DNA of 64,000 nucleotides, from assembly GCF_900090235.1 (NCBI RefSeq), contig NZ_LT607750.1, positions 1,066,501 to 1,130,500 of the forward strand. Reading direction: 5' to 3'. A model generated the notes under the pieces. The model did no database searches. It was not told the DNA's origin and saw nothing but the letters and a program-made list of their open reading frames with translations. The position numbers and the translations under genes are program-made. Shown one piece after another: positions 2,620 to 54,024 of the stretch (its first letter is position 1; each line of letters opens with the position of its first letter). The DNA is from Micromonospora echinaurantiaca. GTDB lineage: Bacteria; Actinomycetota; Actinomycetes; Mycobacteriales; Micromonosporaceae.

Positions 2620-4026
2620 GTGCCCACCTCCACCGACCCCGGCCGGCCCGACCCGGAGGCGACCACGGTCGCCCTGACCCGTGACGGCCGCCCGGTCTCC
2701 GACCGGGGCGACACGGTCTGCGTCATCGGCGCCGGGGCCAGCGGCCTCACCGCCATCAAGAACCTCAAGGAGCACGGCTTCGGCGTCGACTGCTACGAGC
2801 GGGAGACCGGCGTCGGCGGCGCGTGGAACTGGCGACACGACCGCAGCCCGGTGTACGCCAGCACGCACCTGATCTCGTCCCGGCCGTTCACCCAGTTCCC
2901 GGACTTCCCGATGCCGGACGACTGGCCGGACTACCCACACCACAGCCAGCTGCTGTCCTACTTCGAGCGGTACGCCGACCACTTCGACCTGCGCGCGCAC
3001 ATCTGGTTCGGCACCGAGGTGGTGCGGGTCGAGCCGGCCGAGGGGGACCGCTGGGACGTCACCACCCGCAGCACCGGCGGCTACGGCCCAGAGCGCACCG
3101 CCCGGTACGCGGCGGTGGTGGTGGCCAACGGGCACAACTGGTCGCCGAAGCTGCCCCGCTACGAGGGGCTGGAGCAGTTCCGCGGCGAGGTCATGCACGC
3201 CTCGTCGTACCAGGACCCGGCGCAGCTGCGCGGCAAGCGGGTGCTGGTGGTCGGCGCCGGCAACACCGGGTGCGACATCGCCGTGGAGGCCGCCCAGCAG
3301 GCCGCCCAATGCTGGCACTCCACCCGCCGGGGCTACTGGTACGCGCCGAAGTACGTGCTCGGCCGCCCGGCCGACCAGGTCAACGACTCGCTGCTCGCGC
3401 TGCGGGTGCCCCGCCGGGTACGCCAGTGGCTCTACCACTGGACGCTGCGGCTGACCGTCGGCGACCTGACCCGGTACGGCCTGCCCAAGCCCGACCACCG
3501 GGTCTACGAGACGCACCCGATCGCCAACAGCCAGCTCGTCTACTACGTCGGCCACGGCCGGATCAGCCCGGTGCCGGACGTCGCCCGCTTCGACGCGTAC
3601 GGGGTGGAGCTGACCGACGGCCGCCGGATCGACCCGGAGCTGGTCGTCTTCGCCACCGGCTACCTGCCGCGCTTCGAGTTCCTCGACCCGAAGGTGCTCG
3701 GCGACGACGGCGGGACCGGCCGGCCCACGCTCTGGCTGCACGCGTTCGCCCCCGGGCATCCCACCCTGGCGGTGGCCGGCCTGCTCCAGCCGGACTCCGG
3801 CCTCTTCCCGCTGTCGCACTGGCAGATGGTGCTCTTCGCCCGGCTGCTGCGGCTGCGGCAGACCCGCCCCGAGCGGGCCGCGGCGTTCGCCGCCAAGGTG
3901 CAGGCGCGGGCGGGGGAGCGGTACACCGGCCCGGTCAAGGACAGCACCCGGCACTGGTTCGAGGTCGGGCACGCCGACTACCTGCGCGCCGTCCAGCGCG
4001 CACTGCACGACCTGGAGGACAAGTGA
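2620..4026 (+). CDS. flavin-containing monooxygenase (FMO-like)
   Basis: 468-residue NADPH-dependent FAD monooxygenase. The first Rossmann motif VIGAGASGLTAIK (about residue 32) binds FAD, the second, VVGAGNTGCDIA, binds NADPH. Between them lies FRGEVMHASSY, which matches the FMO fingerprint FxGxxxHxxxY, and FATGYLP near the C-terminus is the late FAD-binding motif. Class B monooxygenases of this kind oxygenate soft nitrogen or sulfur atoms or perform Baeyer-Villiger reactions; the substrate is unknown. AAAAGGAG ends 9 bases before the GTG. The stop codon is overlapped by the first base triplet of a repeat cassette at 4023. Confidence 0.88.
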   Translation: MPTSTDPGRPDPEATTVALTRDGRPVSDRGDTVCVIGAGASGLTAIKNLKEHGFGVDCYERETGVGGAWNWRHDRSPVYASTHLISSRPFTQFPDFPMPDDWPDYPHHSQLLSYFERYADHFDLRAHIWFGTEVVRVEPAEGDRWDVTTRSTGGYGPERTARYAAVVVANGHNWSPKLPRYEGLEQFRGEVMHASSYQDPAQLRGKRVLVVGAGNTGCDIAVEAAQQAAQCWHSTRRGYWYAPKYVLGRPADQVNDSLLALRVPRRVRQWLYHWTLRLTVGDLTRYGLPKPDHRVYETHPIANSQLVYYVGHGRISPVPDVARFDAYGVELTDGRRIDPELVVFATGYLPRFEFLDPKVLGDDGGTGRPTLWLHAFAPGHPTLAVAGLLQPDSGLFPLSHWQMVLFARLLRLRQTRPERAAAFAAKVQARAGERYTGPVKDSTRHWFEVGHADYLRAVQRALHDLEDK

Positions 4027-4106
4027 GCGAGCGCAGTGAGCGAACCATCCGGCTCAGTGCGGCCGTGCCTCACGGCGCCGCGCGGCGCAGCGGAGCGGCG
4101 GCGTGA
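4023..4106 (+). repeat. MSER relay cassette, copy A (mini-ORF)
   Basis: GTG at 4023-4025 overlaps the TGA of the monooxygenase gene (4024-4026). The open frame runs 27 codons, MSERSERTIRLSAAV...RRSGAAA, and its TGA (4104-4106) overlaps the GTG start of the next gene at 4103. The same layout and a similar peptide occur at 40255-40329 (minus) and 53777-53860. GTGAGCGAGCG occurs at both ends, as a duplicated target would. Third positions are less G/C-biased than in neighbouring genes. Confidence 0.75.
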
Positions 4107-4927
4107 GCGAGCGGGTGCGGGTGATGCGGGGGCGGGAGTGGGCCCGCCCGGTCCGCCCGGTCCGGCGCGAGGTGCTCGCGGCCACGCCGGAGCTGGAGGA
4201 GGGCCGGCCGCCGCTGCTGTTCGTGCCGGGGTTCGGGCACGGCGCGTGGGCGTTCGCCGAGCACTGGCTGGGGCACGCCGCCGGTCGCGGTTTCCCGGCG
4301 TACGCGCTGAGCCTGCGCGGGCACGGCGGCAGCGGCCCGGCACCGGAGGCGACCCTGCGGGCGTACGCCCATGACGTGGTGCAGGTGGCGGCGGGCCTGC
4401 CGCGCCAGGCGGTGCTGGTCGGGCACGGCGCCGGGGCGCTGGTGGTGGCGCACGCCCTCGCCCGCTACCCGGCCCGGGCCGCGGTGCTGGTCGCGCCGGT
4501 GCTCGGCGGCTGGGCGACGTTCGGTGCCGCGCTGCGCCGCAACCCGGCCGGCACGTTGCCGGCGGTGTTCGGCGGGCGGTTGCGGCTGAACCGCCGGCAG
4601 CTGTTCAGCCGGGAACTGCCCGACGCGGACGCCCGGGGGTACGTGTCCCGGCTGGGCCGGGCCGGCCGGCGCGCCCAGTGGCAGCTGCTCACCCACGCCG
4701 ACCCGGAACCGGCGGTGGGTCGGCCGCCGGTGCTGGTGCTGGGCAGCCCGGACGACCGGATCGTCCCGCCGGCCGCGCTGACCCGGGCCGCCCGCCGGTA
4801 CGGCTCGGCGCCGCTGCTCTTCCCCGGCATGGGGCACGACCTGATGCTGGACGCCCGCTGGCGGGAGCCGATCGACGCGATCCTGGACTGGCTGGCGAAG
4901 GAGCCGGCGCCCGAGCGCCGACCCTGA
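4103..4927 (+). CDS. alpha/beta hydrolase
   Basis: 274 residues with an alpha/beta-hydrolase core. The oxyanion strand LLFVPGFGHGAWAF is present. The nucleophile elbow position reads VGHGAGA, that is GHGAG rather than the usual GxSxG, so the expected serine is replaced by alanine or lies elsewhere. The acid may be in VLGSPDDRIVPP and the histidine in PGMGHDLMLDA. It may therefore be a non-catalytic or unusual family member. It is preceded by repeat cassette A, which provides its GTG start through a GTGA overlap, so it is probably translated by coupling. Confidence 0.8.
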   Translation: MSERVRVMRGREWARPVRPVRREVLAATPELEEGRPPLLFVPGFGHGAWAFAEHWLGHAAGRGFPAYALSLRGHGGSGPAPEATLRAYAHDVVQVAAGLPRQAVLVGHGAGALVVAHALARYPARAAVLVAPVLGGWATFGAALRRNPAGTLPAVFGGRLRLNRRQLFSRELPDADARGYVSRLGRAGRRAQWQLLTHADPEPAVGRPPVLVLGSPDDRIVPPAALTRAARRYGSAPLLFPGMGHDLMLDARWREPIDAILDWLAKEPAPERRP

Positions 4928-39130: not shown

Positions 39131-40258
39131 CTAGGTGACCGGGCGGCCCCGCCAGGTCAGCCGGCGCCGCTTCCGCAGATGGTACGACCGCAGGGTCAGC
39201 CAACCGAGGACCACGACCGACACGGGGTGTGCCAGCGAGTCGGGCCACCACCGGCCGCCGGTCGCCCGGGCGCTGATCGCCCGTCCGGCCACCCCGAGCA
39301 GGTACGCCGCCGCGGCGGCGGCCGCCACCGGCGCCGCCCCGGCGGCGAGCGCGCCCACCGCCAGCAGCGGCGGCGCGGTGTAGAGCAGGAGCAGCAGCGC
39401 CACCACCACGGCCGCCGCCACCGGGTGGCCGAACGAGGCCCAGAGCGACTTGGTGTAGCCGTCGCGCAGCTGCGGCCAGTTGTCGTACATCCGGCAGGTG
39501 GCCAGCCGCGAGCCGTCGGCCAGGGCGATCCGGCCGCCGGCCCGCTTGACCGCCCGGGCCAGCTCGACGTCCTCCAGGACCTTGTCGGCCACCGCGACGT
39601 GCCCGCCGGCCCGTTCGTAGCCGGCCCGGTCCAGCACCAGGAACTGCCCGCCGGCCGCGGCAAGCGACGGCCGCGGTGAGCGCTCCATCGCGCGCAGCGG
39701 CAGGAAGGTCAGCCACAGCCACTGCAGCAGCGGCTGGACCAGCCGGTCCGCCGCCGTGACCACCAGGATCCTCGGGTACGGCGACAGCAGCGCCAGCCGG
39801 GCGGCGCGCAGTTCGGTGACCGCCGCCGCCACCGCGTCCGGGGCGAGCACCACGTCGGCGTCGACGAAGACCAGCGCGGTGGCCGCCGGGTCGGCCCGGC
39901 TGGCCAACTGCCAGCAGGCATACGGCTTGCCCAGCCAGCCCGGCGGCGGGGCGGCTCCGCGCAGCAGGGTGACCCGCGGGTCGTCGCCGGCCACCGCCCG
40001 GACCACCTCGGCGGTGCCGTCGGTGGACCCGTCGTCGAGCACCACGACGCGCAGCCCCGGCACGCCGCGCTGGGCGAGCAGCGCGCGCAGGCACGGGGTG
40101 ACCCGGGCGGCCTCGTCGCGCAGCGGCAGCAGCACCGCGACCGGCTCGTCCACCGGGGCCGGCGGTACGGCCGGGCGGCGCAGCCAGCGGCCGGCGTTGA
40201 CCAGCGTGTGCGCGGTCAGCACGGCGACGCCGAGCAGCAGGACGAGCACGCCGCTCAT
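39131..40258 (-). CDS. membrane glycosyltransferase family 2, CruG-like
   Basis: 375 residues. An N-terminal helix, a GT-A domain (VAVLLPLRDEAARVTPCLRAL, VVVLDDGSTDGTAE, ALVFVDADVVLAPDA with the DxD, LEDVELARAVKRAG) and three C-terminal helices. In carotenoid clusters this type follows CruF and adds a sugar to the 1'- or 2'-hydroxyl; that role is inferred from position. Its ATG is supplied by the end of repeat cassette C. The TAG stop lies 8 bases before the desaturase ATG. Confidence 0.82.
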   Translation of the reverse strand: MSGVLVLLLGVAVLTAHTLVNAGRWLRRPAVPPAPVDEPVAVLLPLRDEAARVTPCLRALLAQRGVPGLRVVVLDDGSTDGTAEVVRAVAGDDPRVTLLRGAAPPPGWLGKPYACWQLASRADPAATALVFVDADVVLAPDAVAAAVTELRAARLALLSPYPRILVVTAADRLVQPLLQWLWLTFLPLRAMERSPRPSLAAAGGQFLVLDRAGYERAGGHVAVADKVLEDVELARAVKRAGGRIALADGSRLATCRMYDNWPQLRDGYTKSLWASFGHPVAAAVVVALLLLLYTAPPLLAVGALAAGAAPVAAAAAAAYLLGVAGRAISARATGGRWWPDSLAHPVSVVVLGWLTLRSYHLRKRRRLTWRGRPVT

Positions 40259-40329
40259 GCCGGCACTCCGCTGCGCTGCGTGCCGGCCTGAGGCATGGCG
40301 GCGCTGAGTTCGCTGATGCGCTCGCTCAT
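40255..40329 (-). repeat. MSER relay cassette, copy C (mini-ORF)
   Basis: Minus strand: ATG at 40329-40327 overlaps the CruF stop (40328-40326); 24 codons read MSERISELSAAMPQ...QRSGVPA; TGA at 40257-40255 overlaps the ATG of the glycosyltransferase gene (40258). It is 9 bases shorter than copies A and B, an in-frame difference. ATGAGCG at both ends. Confidence 0.8.
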
Positions 40330-41192
40330 GCCGGTGCGTCGGCGTCGGCGCGCCGGGGCGGGTGGGACGCCGGCCGGTCGGCGCGGCGGGTCCGCAGCAG
40401 CGTCAGCGCGAGCGGCACCGCGGTCACCGACATGCCGGCCGCGCCCCACAGCGCGGAGGCGGGCAGGTCGAGGAAGATCGCGTGGGCCAGCATGCTGGAG
40501 CCGTACGTCCACAGGTAGAGCGCGAACATCGGGTGGTCCCGCCGGTCGGTGCCGGCCACCGCCGACCCGGCCAGCGGGCGCAGCGCGGTCATCAGCAGCA
40601 CCGCGAAGAGCAGCCAGCCGAGGTAGTTGCTGACCGGGACGCCGGGCAGGCCGGGCAGCGCCGGGGTGGCGTCGCGCCAGACCCAGTGGCCCTCGGCCAC
40701 CATCTGCGGGTCGAGGAAGAGGTCCCAGGTGGCCAGCCCGAGCGCGGCCAGCGCGATCCGCCGGACGGCGAGCGCGACCGGTGACCCGGGGTGGTGGTCG
40801 CCGGCCGGGCCCACGGGGTCGGGCGGCGTGGTGAGCCGGACCGCGGTCAGCCAGGCCGGCCAGGCCATCCAGGTCCACGCCAGCGGAATGACCAGCGGCA
40901 CTCCGGCCAGCTTCGGGCCCAACTGGCCGGAGTAGTCGTAGCTGCCGAACGGGAAGCCGGTGGCCACCCCGAGCGCCTCGATGGCGAACCCGCCGCCGGT
41001 GGCCACCGCCACCAGCGCCACGGCGGTACGCGCACCCCGGTTGAGCAGCGCGTGGCCGACCGAGAGCAGCCAGCCGAGGCCGACGGTGGCCACGGTCAGC
41101 CGGGCCCGGGTCGTGCCGGTGGTCAGCGGGTAGCAGATCTGCGCGAGCACCAGCACGGCCAGCAGCGCCCAGCAGGCCCGCTGCCGGTTCAC
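40326..41192 (-). CDS. cruF: carotenoid 1',2'-hydratase, CruF-like
   Basis: 288-residue membrane protein of the DUF422/CruF family, which adds water across the 1',2' double bond at the acyclic end of gamma-carotene-like pigments. Seven or so membrane helices; conserved acidic and aromatic motifs in FAIEALGVATGFPFGSYDYS, LAWTWMAWPAWLTA, ATWDLFLDPQMVAEGHWVWR and VPVSNYLGWLL. The GTG start overlaps the GNAT stop (GTGA). Co-transcribed with CrtA-like, glycosyltransferase and desaturase genes. Confidence 0.88.
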   Translation of the reverse strand: MNRQRACWALLAVLVLAQICYPLTTGTTRARLTVATVGLGWLLSVGHALLNRGARTAVALVAVATGGGFAIEALGVATGFPFGSYDYSGQLGPKLAGVPLVIPLAWTWMAWPAWLTAVRLTTPPDPVGPAGDHHPGSPVALAVRRIALAALGLATWDLFLDPQMVAEGHWVWRDATPALPGLPGVPVSNYLGWLLFAVLLMTALRPLAGSAVAGTDRRDHPMFALYLWTYGSSMLAHAIFLDLPASALWGAAGMSVTAVPLALTLLRTRRADRPASHPPRRADADAPA

Positions 41193-41794
41193 GACGCGGC
41201 CGGGCCGGGCGGGGCCTGCGCGGAGGAGCGCGGCGGGGCCGGCGCCGGGCCGGGAGGCGGGAGGGGGAGGTCCCGGCCGAGCACGCCGAACGGGCGCTCG
41301 TCGCCGGGGAAGTGGAAGTCGCGCAGGATGTCGACGAACCCGAACCGGCGGTACAGCCGCCAGGCCCGCGACCGCTGCTCGTCGGCCTCCGGGGTGGACA
41401 GCAGGGTGGTGGCCCCCTCGGCCATGGTGAGCAGGGCGCGCAGTTGCCCCGCGCCCAGGCCGTGCCCCTGCGCGGGCGGCCGGACGTGCAGCTCGACCAC
41501 CTCGAAGCAGTCGGCCAGCCAGCGCTGCCGGGTGGCCGGGTCCAGCGCCCGCCAGACCTGGTCGTGCCACCACTGCCCGGGGGCGCCGAGGTAGCCGTAG
41601 CCGAAGCCGGCCAGGTGCCCCTCGGTGGTCAGGCTGGCCACGGCCCGGAAGCCGGGGCGGCGGACGTGGGTGGCGATGTAGCCGCGGCGGGCCTCCAGCA
41701 GGTCGGTGCGGTAGCCCATCGCCTCGCCGTAGACGGCCACCACGTCGTCCAGCCGCCGGACGAGATCGTCCGGTGTCCACCGCACCAACCTCAT
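41189..41794 (-). CDS. GNAT N-acetyltransferase
   Basis: 201 residues. The acetyl-CoA loop is seen in VELHVRPPAQGHGLGAGQLRALL (the QxxGxG/A element), followed by TTLLSTPEADEQRSRAWRLYRRFGFV, the usual beta-alpha-beta end. Substrate unknown. It sits in the middle of the carotenoid operon with ATGA and GTGA overlaps on both sides. The C-terminal 30 residues are Pro/Ala-rich. Confidence 0.85.
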   Translation of the reverse strand: MRLVRWTPDDLVRRLDDVVAVYGEAMGYRTDLLEARRGYIATHVRRPGFRAVASLTTEGHLAGFGYGYLGAPGQWWHDQVWRALDPATRQRWLADCFEVVELHVRPPAQGHGLGAGQLRALLTMAEGATTLLSTPEADEQRSRAWRLYRRFGFVDILRDFHFPGDERPFGVLGRDLPLPPPGPAPAPPRSSAQAPPGPAAS

Positions 41795-42540
41795 GCCCGC
41801 GCGCCCTTCGCCGTCTCCGCGTCGCCGTCCGCGACCCATCCCAGCACCGTCCGGTCACCGACCACGTCGCACACCGCGAACCGCGCGAAGAGCTCCTCCG
41901 CGTACCACCCCTCGGTGGGGGTCCGCATGATCGCGGCGCGGTGCTCCGGGTGACGGTACGCGAACGCCACCAGGTCCGCCGGGTCACGCCACACGCTCAC
42001 CGTGCCCTGCCAGCCCACCGGGGCCTCGCCGACGCCGAACCGGGCGAGCAGGCCGGGCGCGGCGTGCAGGGCGGCGGCCACCGGCGGGACCGCCCGCCAG
42101 AAGGTGACCGCCCGGCGGGGCCGCAGCCGGGCCCGGGTCAGCGCCAGCACCGGGCCGTCGGCGCGGCCGCCGGGCGGCTCGCCGAACGGCCGGCGGCCGG
42201 ACCACTCGCCCCGGCTGGTCAGCGGGCGCAGGTCGAGCCGGACGGCGGAGCGGGCGATCCGGGACCAGGCCCGGCCCACCGGCGAGGCGTCGAAGCCGGC
42301 CGCCGCGGCGGGGGAGTCCCACACCGCCAGCGCCGCCCACCGGGTCAGGTCGGCGTCACCCGGGCCGAAGCCGGTGCCGGTCCCGGTGCCGAGGAGCTTG
42401 CCGAACCGTACGCCCGGCACGACGCGCAGCCGGCGCGGGTCGAGCGCCATCCGGGCCAGCGCCCGGGGCAGCGCGGGCCGGGAGGTCCGCCACACGTGCA
42501 GGGTGACCAGGCCCGGTACGGCGTGCGCGGGGTCGCTCAC
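41791..42540 (-). CDS. crtA: spheroidene monooxygenase-like protein (CrtA family)
   Basis: 249 residues resembling CrtA, which adds keto groups to acyclic carotenoids. Visible blocks: LVTLHVWRTSRPALPRALARMA, GVRFGKLLGTGTG, DADLTRWAALAVWDS, RLDLRPLTSRGEWSGRRPF, VTFWRAVPPVAAAL and GWYAEELFARFAV. Haem-binding residues cannot be confirmed. The GTG overlaps the YbaK stop. Its place beside CruF and a desaturase supports a carotenoid role. Confidence 0.78.
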   Translation of the reverse strand: MSDPAHAVPGLVTLHVWRTSRPALPRALARMALDPRRLRVVPGVRFGKLLGTGTGTGFGPGDADLTRWAALAVWDSPAAAAGFDASPVGRAWSRIARSAVRLDLRPLTSRGEWSGRRPFGEPPGGRADGPVLALTRARLRPRRAVTFWRAVPPVAAALHAAPGLLARFGVGEAPVGWQGTVSVWRDPADLVAFAYRHPEHRAAIMRTPTEGWYAEELFARFAVCDVVGDRTVLGWVADGDAETAKGARA

Positions 42541-51465: not shown

Positions 51466-52818
51466 ATGTCACGGACACTGCGGGCGACCGCGCTCGCCGG
51501 AGTGCTCGCCCTGGCCGTCACCGGTTGCGGGGGAGTCGGCGGCGGCGATGACGACGGCGGGGGCGGCACCGCGACCAGCGGCACGCTGACCACCATGGGC
51601 TTCGGCCTCTCCGACGAGATCGCCACCACCCGGGTGGACGCCTTCAAGCGGGACCACCCCGGCGTCGACCTGAAGATCACCGAGGGTGCCTTCGACGAGC
51701 AGCAGTTCCTCTCCGCGGTCGCCTCGGGCAACCCGCCGGACCTGGTGTACATGGACCGCAAGCTGATCGGCACGTACGCCAAGCGCGGCTCCATCCAGCC
51801 GCTCACCGACTGCGTCGAGAAGCAGGGCATCGACCTGGCGCAGTACCGGCCGGCCGCGAAGGACCAGGTCACCCTCGACGGCACCGTGTACGGCATCCCG
51901 GAGTTCTCCAGCGTTCGGGTGGTCTACCTCAACGAGGCGCTGCTCCGGCAGGCCGGCCTGACCGTCGACGACGTCGACCTGGCCGACTGGGCGGCGCTGC
52001 CGGCGCTCAACGCGAAGCTCGCCAAGGTCTCCGGCAACCGGCTCTCCCGGATCGGCATCGACCCGAAGATCCCGGAGTTCCTGCCGATGTGGGCCAAGGC
52101 CAACGGCGCCGACATGATCTCGGCGGACGGGACGAAGGCGAACCTCACCGACCCGAAGGTGGTCGAGGCGCTCACCACCGGCCTACAGCTGATCCAGGAC
52201 CAGGGCGGGTTCGGCAGGTTCAAGTCGTTCCGGGACACCTTCGACTTCTTCGGGGCGGAGAACCCGCTGACCAAGAGCCAGATCGTCGCCTGGCCGATGG
52301 AGGAGTGGTTCCTCAACCAGGCCGCCAAGAACAGCCCGAAGGCGGAACTGGTGGTCAAGCCGTTCGTCGACCGGCAGGGCAAGCCGCTGACCATGTCCTC
52401 CGGGCAGGCCTGGGTGATCACCAAGGGGGCGAAGAACCCGGACGCCGCGTGCGCGTTCGCCAAGCAGATGACCGCCACCGACACCTGGCTCGCCGCGGCG
52501 AAGGCCCGGGCCGACGCCCGCAAGGCCGCCGGCCAGCCGTTCACCGGCGTCTGGACCGGCAACCTCAACGCCGACAACAAGATCTTCGACGAGCTGTACC
52601 AGCCGACCGGCAACAAGCGGTTCGACGACGCGGTGGCCACCATCCGCTCGGTGCAGGACGCCGCCTTCGCCATGCCCGCCTCGCCGGCCGGGGCCGAGTT
52701 CGACAAGGCCTGGTACGACGCGGTGAACCGGGTGCTCGCCGGGCAGGCCCAGCCGGCCGAGGCGCTGGCCCGGGCCCAGCAGGAGGCCACCGCCGCGCTG
52801 GACGAGGCGTCGAAGTAG
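51466..52818 (+). CDS. sugar ABC transporter substrate-binding lipoprotein
   Basis: 450 residues. Lipobox LAVTGC at residue 21, then an Asp/Gly tether and an extracellular solute-binding domain: TLTTMGFGLSDEIATTRVDAFKRDHPGVDLKI, NPPDLVYMDRKLIGTYAKRG, YGIPEFSSVRVVYLNEALLRQAG, MSSGQAWVITKGAKNPDAACAFAKQ. Family 1 proteins bind oligosaccharides. GGGGAGG precedes the ATG. First gene of an importer operon with two permeases; ligand unknown. Confidence 0.9.
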   Translation: MSRTLRATALAGVLALAVTGCGGVGGGDDDGGGGTATSGTLTTMGFGLSDEIATTRVDAFKRDHPGVDLKITEGAFDEQQFLSAVASGNPPDLVYMDRKLIGTYAKRGSIQPLTDCVEKQGIDLAQYRPAAKDQVTLDGTVYGIPEFSSVRVVYLNEALLRQAGLTVDDVDLADWAALPALNAKLAKVSGNRLSRIGIDPKIPEFLPMWAKANGADMISADGTKANLTDPKVVEALTTGLQLIQDQGGFGRFKSFRDTFDFFGAENPLTKSQIVAWPMEEWFLNQAAKNSPKAELVVKPFVDRQGKPLTMSSGQAWVITKGAKNPDAACAFAKQMTATDTWLAAAKARADARKAAGQPFTGVWTGNLNADNKIFDELYQPTGNKRFDDAVATIRSVQDAAFAMPASPAGAEFDKAWYDAVNRVLAGQAQPAEALARAQQEATAALDEASK

Positions 52819-52826
52819 GCGCCGGG

Positions 52827-53780
52827 ATGGCCAGCACCGCCACCGCTCCTCCCGTACCGGGCCGGCGCCGCCGTACGCCGCTGGCCCGGCGGGAGGCGCG
52901 CTGGGCGTACCTGTTCCTGGCGCCGTGGATCATCGGGTTCCTGGCGTTCACCGCCGGCCCGATGATCGCCAGCGCCTGGCTCAGCTTCACCGAGTACGAC
53001 GTGATCAACCCGCCGGAGTACACCGGGCTGGACAACTACCGGGAGCTGATGGCCGACCAGCAGGTGGCCCGCAGTCTCGGCAACACCGTCTACTACACGG
53101 CGCTGCACGTGCCGCTGGTGATGGCCGTCTCGCTCGGGCTGGCGCTGCTGCTCAAGCGGGTGGGGCGGTGGCAGGGCTTCTTCCGTACCGTCTTCTACCT
53201 GCCGGTGATGACCCCGGCGGTGGCGGTCGGCATCCTGTTCCTGCTCCTGCTCAACACCCAGGACGGCCTGATCAACCGCGGGTTGGCGCTGGTCGGGATC
53301 GCGGGGCCGAGCTGGACCACCGACCCGGACTGGGTGATGCCCGGCATCGTGCTGATGAGCCTCTGGAGCCTCGGCTCCACCGTGATCATCTACCTCGCCG
53401 CGTTGCAGAACGTGCCGCGCGACCTGTACGAGGCGGCCAGCATCGACGGGGCCGGCGGCTGGGCCCGGTTCCGCCACGTCACGCTGCCGATGATCTCCGG
53501 TGCGCTGTTCTTCACGCTGATCGTCAACACGATCGCGTCGCTGCAGATGTTCACCGAGGTCTACACCATGTACTTCGGCAACCGGGAGACGCAGAACCGG
53601 TTCAACAGCGACGCGGCATCGTTCTACGTGATCCATTTGTTCCAGGAAGCGTTCCAGTTCCTGCACATGGGCTACGCCTCGGCCATGGCCTGGCTGCTCT
53701 TCGTGATCATCCTGGTGGTCACGTTGGTGCAGGTGAAGCTCAGCAACCGGTTCGTGTTCTACGAGGGGGAGGACCGATGA
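52827..53780 (+). CDS. sugar ABC transporter permease 1 (MalF-like)
   Basis: 317 residues with six membrane helices from LFLAPWIIGFLAFTAGPMIASAW onwards and the ATPase-contact EAA loop YEAASIDGAGGWARFRHVTLP. No ATPase gene is in the operon, so a shared ATPase such as MsiK probably serves it. Starts 8 bases after the binding-protein gene. The stop overlaps cassette B at 53777. Confidence 0.92.
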   Translation: MASTATAPPVPGRRRRTPLARREARWAYLFLAPWIIGFLAFTAGPMIASAWLSFTEYDVINPPEYTGLDNYRELMADQQVARSLGNTVYYTALHVPLVMAVSLGLALLLKRVGRWQGFFRTVFYLPVMTPAVAVGILFLLLLNTQDGLINRGLALVGIAGPSWTTDPDWVMPGIVLMSLWSLGSTVIIYLAALQNVPRDLYEAASIDGAGGWARFRHVTLPMISGALFFTLIVNTIASLQMFTEVYTMYFGNRETQNRFNSDAASFYVIHLFQEAFQFLHMGYASAMAWLLFVIILVVTLVQVKLSNRFVFYEGEDR

Positions 53781-53860
53781 GCGAGCGAAGCGAGCGAATC
53801 ATCAGGTTCAGGGCGATGGTGCCTCATGACGGCACGCAGCGGAGCGGAGTGCCGGCATGA
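53777..53860 (+). repeat. MSER relay cassette, copy B (mini-ORF)
   Basis: ATG at 53777 overlaps the permease stop (53778-53780); the 27-codon frame MSERSERIIRFRAMV...QRSGVPA ends in TGA (53858-53860) that overlaps the next ATG at 53857. ATGAGCGAG stands at both ends. GGCAC and GTGCC near the 3' end can pair into a hairpin. Same layout as copies A and C. Confidence 0.8.
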
Positions 53861-54024
53861 GCGAGACGTACCACGAGGTGGCCAACAGCCGGCGGACCCG
53901 GCTGGCGGCCGACTGGCGCCCGCACCAGTGCGAGGCCCGGGAGTACCCGGTCACCGGCGGACCGGTGGCCAACGCCCGGCGCTCGCGGGTCGAGAAGGAC
54001 CCCGAGGGCGGGGCGGAGTCGTGA
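53857..54024 (+). CDS. 55-residue protein within the ABC operon
   Basis: A small soluble protein beginning MSETYHEVANSRRTRLAAD, containing one Cys in PHQCEAREYPVTGG, and ending in a charged tail KDPEGGAES. Almost every codon ends in G or C, as in real genes nearby. It has ATGA overlap upstream and GTGA overlap with permease 2 downstream. No family recognised and no membrane helix. It may be a small partner of the transporter. Confidence 0.65.
   Translation: MSETYHEVANSRRTRLAADWRPHQCEAREYPVTGGPVANARRSRVEKDPEGGAES

Follow-up and report, generated by a model that had tools for sequence, protein, structure and literature searches.

An approximately 80-bp frame-preserving interspersed repeat, probably of the MIRU kind, at gene start and stop/start overlaps in Micromonospora and other actinobacteria

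The sequence at positions 53777 to 53860 of the 64,000-nucleotide stretch of the Micromonospora echinaurantiaca genome analysed here (the window, own-genome positions 1066501-1130500) is one copy of a repeat that we read as a non-autonomous interspersed element of the same kind as the mycobacterial interspersed repetitive units (MIRUs; Supply 1997 and 2000, as cited by others). According to this reading, to which we give a probability of about 0.78, the repeat is about 80 bp long, preserves reading frame, and occupies an NTGA that is the start of one gene and usually also the stop of the gene before it. The window holds three copies, and these and their surroundings are as follows.

4023..4106, + strand: unit copy 1, GTGA...GTGA, 80 bp + 4
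2620..4026, + strand: gene upstream of copy 1, flavin monooxygenase-like (PF00743); its stop overlaps the left GTGA
4103..4927, + strand: gene downstream of copy 1, alpha/beta hydrolase (PF12697); its start is in the right GTGA
40255..40329, - strand: unit copy 2, ATGA...ATGA, 71 bp + 4 (the 9-bp shorter form)
40326..41987, - strand: gene upstream of copy 2, carotenoid biosynthesis protein (PF04240); the open reading frame exceeds the length of the domain and the true start is probably further in
39131..40258, - strand: gene downstream of copy 2, family 2 glycosyltransferase (PF00535)
53777..53860, + strand: unit copy 3, the main finding, ATGA...ATGA, 80 bp + 4
52089..53780, + strand: gene upstream of copy 3, ABC transporter permease (PF00528); the true start is probably later than listed
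53857..54024, + strand: gene downstream of copy 3, conserved 55-aa small protein
53825..53859, + strand: 3' hairpin of copy 3 (alignment columns 50-84), with the start codon of the next gene in its 3' arm
53846..53849, + strand: GGAG of copy 3, Shine-Dalgarno-like, 7 nt ahead of the right ATG

In all three copies the left TGA closes an upstream open frame and the right NTGA opens a downstream one, so that the coordinates and the NTGA-unit-NTGA anatomy of the original prediction are correct throughout, with a linking open frame of 24 or 27 codons. The 55-codon frame that begins in the right ATGA of copy 3 is kept in two relatives (G004 and G016) and is followed, via a GTGA overlap, by a second permease; this conserved protein between two ABC permeases falls below the 100-aa limit of the list of open reading frames.

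A BLAST search of the 7.2-Mb genome (one contig) with copy 3 returned 62 matches including copy 3 itself, with E values down to 1e-37, and these comprise 59 full-length units at 39 loci and three partial ones, which bears out the expectation of a dispersed element with many genomic copies. Each locus holds from one to nine copies, in arrays with an 80-bp period in which neighbours share an NTGA, and all 59 full-length units are in sense orientation, as had been proposed from the three window copies. When the unit ends are set on the aligned NTGA, independent of reading frame, 58 of the 59 have a length of 2 mod 3 (80, 71 or 74 bp) and are open from the left NTG to the right TGA, as expected of a frame-preserving element, and we note that because the units are copies of one another such frame counts overstate the number of independent events. 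The 58 include unit 4936103, which has AGGA in place of the left NTGA, and the sole full-length frame-breaker is an 81-bp unit at 7142077. Among 48 distinct units, all 48 are free of stops in frame 0, as compared with one in frame +1 and 33 in frame +2; four partial or swollen copies beyond the 59, of 23, 59, 53 and 155 bp, also keep the linking frame. Nine near-identical tandem units lie ahead of a single gene at G000:C1:5651780-5652538, preceded by a partial unit, and inspection by eye suggests that a leaderless GTG start is possible there.

Flanking genes were called with a codon model that takes the best of six frames and requires at least 40 codons. The right NTGA is a gene start at 37 of the 39 loci, and at the other two the gene is reached via one more mini-ORF (of 18 or 9 codons); the left NTGA is the stop of the upstream gene at 29 loci, while at the other ten the test gives no coding frame ending in it, three of these having a degenerate unit ahead as judged by eye. 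An earlier count, made in fixed windows with a minimum of 60 codons, put a gene on the right at 35, on the left at 29 and on both sides at 26 of the 39 loci. The placement at translationally coupled junctions thus extends well beyond the window, and the whole-genome count does not give the pattern that the original prediction had named as fatal to it, namely that most copies lie outside stop/start overlaps or are random in frame and strand. A covariance model finds 95 matches in the same genome at E <= 1, some of which are the hairpin on the opposite strand. Eighteen further stretches were fetched, one of them inside an array already counted, and the 17 more diverged matches examined all lay outside model building; nine have an NTGA at both modelled ends, and of these seven are in frame, all nine have a downstream gene and six an upstream gene, the other eight matches being truncated, fused to a neighbour or mis-bounded by the model.

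Comparison with orthologous junctions shows how the sites look without a unit. Four junctions (those of copies 1 to 3 and of unit 4045327) were examined by following the chain from the upstream stop in the best-matching genomes of 37 searched (copies 2 and 3) or 41 searched (copy 1 and unit 4045327). Among the resulting 87 loci, in which the own genome is counted four times, there are 55 direct -4 overlaps, 24 relays, three other arrangements and five loci lacking a flanking-gene match; with the own genome excluded the 78 scorable loci divide into 55, 20 and 3. The copy 1 site (30 loci including own) has 12 direct overlaps, 16 relays and two others; the copy 2 site (23 including own) has 16 direct, six relays and one without an upstream match, and in many other Micromonospora its two genes have one ATGA in common with nothing between them; the copy 3 site (seven including own) has two direct, one relay and four without a downstream match; and the unit 4045327 site (27 loci) has 25 direct, one relay, which is that of the own genome, and one other. 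Since relays are defined so that their length is always 2 mod 3, the informative figure is the 24 relays as against three other outcomes. The 55 bare overlaps among 78 loci indicate that the units are clean insertions, and the -4 overlap looks ancestral, with the inserts mostly preserving it. The 24 relays include the four of the own genome and two clear deletion derivatives, one of 32 bp at the copy 2 site of G017 and one of 26 bp at the copy 1 site of G007, and the remainder are units of a second family (56-63 bp) or inserts that have no family assignment. Identity of the left and right N, as a sign of target duplication, was not significant (p 0.063). At one orthologous junction that carries a unit in the own genome, locus L332 of G001 has local tandem copies of the gene's own start region, possibly the de novo birth of a relay unit.

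The family is widespread. With copy 3 as BLAST query, 34 of 61 genomes match, these being the own genome, 32 of 36 from the same genus, and one other. The exact left-end string was found in the own genome only among 396 genomes drawn evenly from the phylum, and is thus too strict a probe; a multi-genus covariance model (R3) finds more. At E <= 1e-4 it matches 86 genomes out of 248 in the order, among them 42 of the 43 from the own genus, and the matches cover 22 of 57 genera; many genera have one weak, unexamined match, and the counts per genome are lower bounds. In a named genome collection the exact left end occurs in at least 120 stretches; the 80 examined are from Micromonospora, Verrucosispora, Plantactinospora, Phytohabitans, Virgisporangium, Nocardia, Nocardioides, Kribbella, Actinopolymorpha, Nonomuraea, Pseudonocardia, Kitasatospora, Streptomyces and some MAGs. 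They contain 94 matches, two of which run off the locus, and in 83 of the 92 complete ones the mini-ORF stops within 130 nt, in every case inside an NTGA, the other nine being long or fused in frame to a protein; the common unit lengths by genus are 80, 77, 74 and 71. Ten more genomes, from seven genera, gave 41 readings, of which 37 end in an NTGA overlap; some units are counted twice among them because loci overlap. A distant blastn search of phage and plasmid collections gave no match.

What is kept among these units is a nucleotide string and an overall frame. The unit consists of a left part, ATGAGCGAGCGNAGCGAGCGAATCATC, a middle that varies and, on the right, the hairpin, and within a phase test set of 94 sequences (seven of them common to both alignments and six hand-picked) GCGAGCGAA[TC]CA is present in 77, read in phase 1 in 52, in phase 2 in 21 and in phase 0 in four, with a total length that is a multiple of three in 76 of the 77. 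Two interior frame classes in the own genome, SERSERII and SERQRANH, result from compensating single-base indels. Divergence at codon positions 1, 2 and 3 is 0.156, 0.146 and 0.141 in the larger class (23 units), and 0.143, 0.192 and 0.205 in the smaller one (13 units). Reading of one string in three phases, together with near-equal divergence at the codon positions in the larger class, argues that the DNA or RNA sequence and the overall frame are kept, and the peptide not or hardly. The MSER start and RSGxPA-like end described at the outset do fit the three window copies, although the peptide is not what is conserved; likewise, where a peptide frame had been expected to be kept in relatives, most units examined retain an open linking frame but not the peptide itself.

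The right end folds into a hairpin in which columns 50-60 pair with 74-84, the start codon included. Paired cells amount to 96.3%, compared with 92.8% in shuffles, and two-sided changes occur in 11 cells compared with 1.8 +/- 1.2 in shuffles, none of 500 reaching as high, although related copies inflate such counts; by a weaker measure, three pairs are changed on both sides, a value reached by 28 of the 500 shuffles. Sliding the partner by 1 to 3 columns leaves 15 to 47% of cells paired, the +3 slide still having nine two-sided cells. We regard the evidence that the covariation is real as good, if not final. In other genera the stem sequence differs and the loop GAGCGNAGCGA is mostly kept. When the last 44 nt are folded and compared with shuffles, the 48 own units have a mean z of -1.25 and 26 units of other genera one of -1.52, compared with -0.35 at 60 random RTGA sites, and the right start codon is paired with a probability above 0.5 in 43 of the 48, 19 of the 26 and 30 of the 60, respectively. 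Pairing of the Shine-Dalgarno stretch (-14 to -6) is not above background, being 0.58 in own units and 0.60 in other genera as compared with 0.62 at the random sites, and thus gives no sign that the hairpin locks the Shine-Dalgarno region; any locking would concern at most the start codon, and the main reading is graded slightly lower on this account. Of the 48 own units, 45 have a Shine-Dalgarno tetramer between -15 and -5 relative to the right NTG, as do 36 of the 40 in a mixed alignment; by comparison, one is present in 25 of the 39 left flanks and at 67 of the window's 581 RTGA sites. Six units folded as a whole did no better than shuffles (z -1.5 to +0.1), the automatically derived structure of the R3 model pairs the left end only, and an Rfam search of the window at the gathering score gave no matches.

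Several variants extend the picture. Several genomes have, at the copy 1 junction, another NTGA-bounded unit (GTGAGCGCGAGGAGTGCAGCGAAGCGGAGCCCCGCAGTCGCGAACGAAAGG...GTGA), 56-59 bp long and in tandem arrays of up to six. It belongs to a second family, of 56-63 bp overall, which differs in sequence and occupies the same kind of junction.

Second-family loci: L363-L366, L368, L370-L372, L374, L388 and L389; in the own genome, L033:2410-2596 and L052:6784-6832

Outside the window, the own-genome occurrences come from two of 34 stretches scanned (348 kb); L052 has one copy, and L033 has three copies with a 63-bp period that form no relay. Within the main family, a 155-bp subtype at own-genome positions 2450777-2450935 has about 75 extra bases at the hairpin and is still in frame; it is also present at a different locus in Micromonospora sp. 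C28SCA-DRY-2 (L124), and in the own genome the corresponding site (L061), with 95-97% identity on either side, is occupied by an 80-bp unit instead. Occurrence of this subtype at different loci of two genomes points to copying of whole units between sites. In L077, L108, L131, L132 and L400 the left part or a shortened unit is fused in frame as an N-terminal extension of the downstream protein, which in L077 resembles porphobilinogen deaminase by eye. The own unit at G000:C1:3250767-3250850 (L045) has the 3' hairpin type of Phytohabitans units L084 and L100, and this may reflect transfer between genera.

These observations are consistent with the following model. A unit would insert exactly at the NTGA that is the start of a gene B and usually also the stop of a gene A; the left NTGA would then serve both as the stop of gene A and as the start of a mini-ORF of 24-27 codons, and the right NTGA both as the stop of the mini-ORF and as the start of gene B, for which the unit supplies its own Shine-Dalgarno motif. 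A ribosome ending gene A, or one loaded at the old Shine-Dalgarno sequence of the target, would most likely translate the mini-ORF and in doing so open the 3' hairpin that holds the start of gene B, and would then most likely stop in the right NTGA and re-initiate on gene B. Selection would keep the length at 2 mod 3 and the frame open, and it is through this that insertion would be tolerated. Of all this, the data show directly the anatomy, the bias in frame and strand, the empty sites, the covariation of the hairpin and the enrichment of the Shine-Dalgarno motif; translation of the mini-ORF, a dependence of gene B upon it and spread of the units by some form of transposition are inferred. 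The out-of-frame 81-bp unit, two out-of-frame units among the nine diverged NTGA-bounded ones, and the L033 repeats count against a relay.

Other explanations can be weighed against these data. That the mini-ORF encodes a conserved micropeptide (MSER...RSGxPA) that is itself the functional product has some appeal, since most own-genome units have similar peptide ends and the smaller class shows a slight third-position excess, but reading of one string in three phases and the near-equal variation of the codon positions in the larger class make it very improbable. It is scarcely credible that the units reflect chance or local tandem duplication of start regions and form no dispersed family at all; duplication of this type does occur at L332, but it does not account for 62 matches spread over 7.2 Mb at E values down to 1e-37, nor for the same family in many species and genera.

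Two further proposals concern how the units move and what they do. Spread could be due to a Y1 HUH transposase of the IS200/IS605 or REP/RAYT-like type, which acts on single strands and recognises hairpins. Transposases of the IS200/IS605 type use guide sequences, and here NTGA would be the cleavage site with internal TCAT as guides (ATGA...TCAT at the left, TCAT...ATGA at the right). The covarying right-end hairpin that takes in the NTGA, the precise NTGA junctions at empty sites and the one PF01797 gene in the own genome fit this proposal, but PF01797 is found in six of 22 Micromonospora genomes and is absent from several unit-rich ones such as G003, G005, G007, G017 and G027, so that Y1 genes do not follow unit number, and an unsystematic look through the loci examined revealed no transposase gene flanked by units; we consider it improbable. 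Alternatively the unit may be a regulatory device and not a tolerated selfish repeat, with the hairpin setting the expression ratio of an operon and tandem copies acting as a rheostat. The hairpin with its start codon and compensatory changes, the unit's own Shine-Dalgarno motif and the arrays of one to nine copies would suit such a role, as would the M. tuberculosis MIRU-VNTR upstream of fpg1, for which longer repeats go with a higher mRNA level according to excerpts of PMC2734929. Set against this, most other genomes tested have no unit of the family at the same junction, and the three gene pairs in the window, few as they are, share no function; a regulatory role therefore seems to us unlikely, if worth keeping in view. 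We prefer the reading as a frame-preserving interspersed repeat of the MIRU kind.

MIRU-VNTRs serve to type tuberculosis strains. A genus from soil whose genomes carry dozens of units, with insertions that vary from species to species and clean empty sites, would allow questions of MIRU origin, mobility and ORF function to be tested in a non-pathogen. A further suggestion from the family is that conservation of the four-base stop/start coupling is tight enough to select among insertions by reading frame. It also suggests that mobile repeats in GC-rich actinobacteria can contain the start of a gene, which bears on the annotation of start codons and of N-terminal extensions.

Among known repeats the closest likeness is to MIRUs. 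Excerpts of the relevant papers describe these as 40-100 bp long at 41 locations (PMC2734929), as apparently mobile and inserted at start codons with an internal ORF that becomes coupled with a -4 spacing (PMC12548453, a 2025 review), and, between senX3 and regX3, as units of 77 and 53 bp, both of which are 2 mod 3, limited to M. leprae and the M. tuberculosis complex (PMC4213456). The present family is similarly a short repeat at many loci with tandem arrays (59 units, 39 loci, up to nine copies), has an internal sense ORF that overlaps the flanking genes by four bases (58 of 59 units; right end 37 and left end 29 of 39 loci), and inserts at an NTGA coupling site (55 direct overlaps as compared with 24 relays among 87 loci), and both have an 11-base core, GAGCGNAGCGA. 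It differs in its left end, ATGAGCGAGCGNAGCGAGCGAATCATC, in its lengths of 80, 77, 74, 71 and 65, and in reaching genera far outside the mycobacteria with a covarying 3' hairpin. To our knowledge, MIRUs lack dyad symmetry.

We also looked for MIRUs with a 20-base pattern that we take to be a MIRU core. It is present in 129 of 296 genomes of one genus (f8 g8), often with 53-bp spacing, with none for a reversed-pattern control among the matches listed, and at one locus a carA-like start is preceded by three units of 76 bp and three of 52 bp; judging by these 53-bp and 52/76-bp periods the genus is presumably Mycobacterium and the arrays MIRUs. These MIRU-type units keep frame less strictly, with forms of 52, 54 and 57 bp besides 50 and 53 bp, and two genomes of the genus (G623 and G584) have 65-bp units of the present family. 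A profile of the right half of our unit gave 12 matches in 20 MIRU-type loci, with a best E of 0.98, four being inside one array (L324) and three matches at E 0.98 falling inside the 76/52-bp array; a MIRU profile run against 543 kb holding our units gave 12 matches, one of them on a unit (E 9.2). Neither profile thus finds the other family significantly, and sequence homology between the two is shown no further than the GAGCGNAGCGA core, the one stretch that they share.

REP/BIME, ERIC and BOX palindromic repeats are likewise short, dispersed, hairpin-forming and non-autonomous, and we know of no conserved linking frame at stop/start overlaps among them. Myt-11 of M. tuberculosis is a 65-bp stem-loop family containing MIRU repeats (PMC2267715), and excerpts of that paper report it from mycobacteria and nowhere else. 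Full-text literature searches gave no match to the unit sequence strings, an unrelated cyanobacterial use of 'MIRU-like', and among the matches listed, with most subscription journals outside the scope, no description of such repeats outside mycobacteria. More tentatively, MIRUs, this approximately 80-bp family and the 59-bp Micromonospora family might be branches, sharing the GAGCGNAGCGA core, of a superfamily of mobile translation relays over the actinobacteria. Its members would be short hairpin-ended units inserting at NTGA start/stop junctions, each bringing a ribosome-binding motif and a start codon held in the hairpin, with selection maintaining a length of 2 mod 3; we rate this combination as less likely than not. 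The suggestion of an undescribed kind of element does not stand, since MIRUs are already described, in the excerpts of PMC12548453, as start-codon inserts with a coupled ORF. As far as we have searched, then, the repeat is known in kind, being MIRU-like, and is new as a family and in extent, the apparently new features being model matches in 22 of 57 sampled genera of the order, together with named genera such as Nocardioides, Kribbella and Streptomyces, a covarying 3' hairpin that includes the start codon, and a nucleotide string read in three phases.
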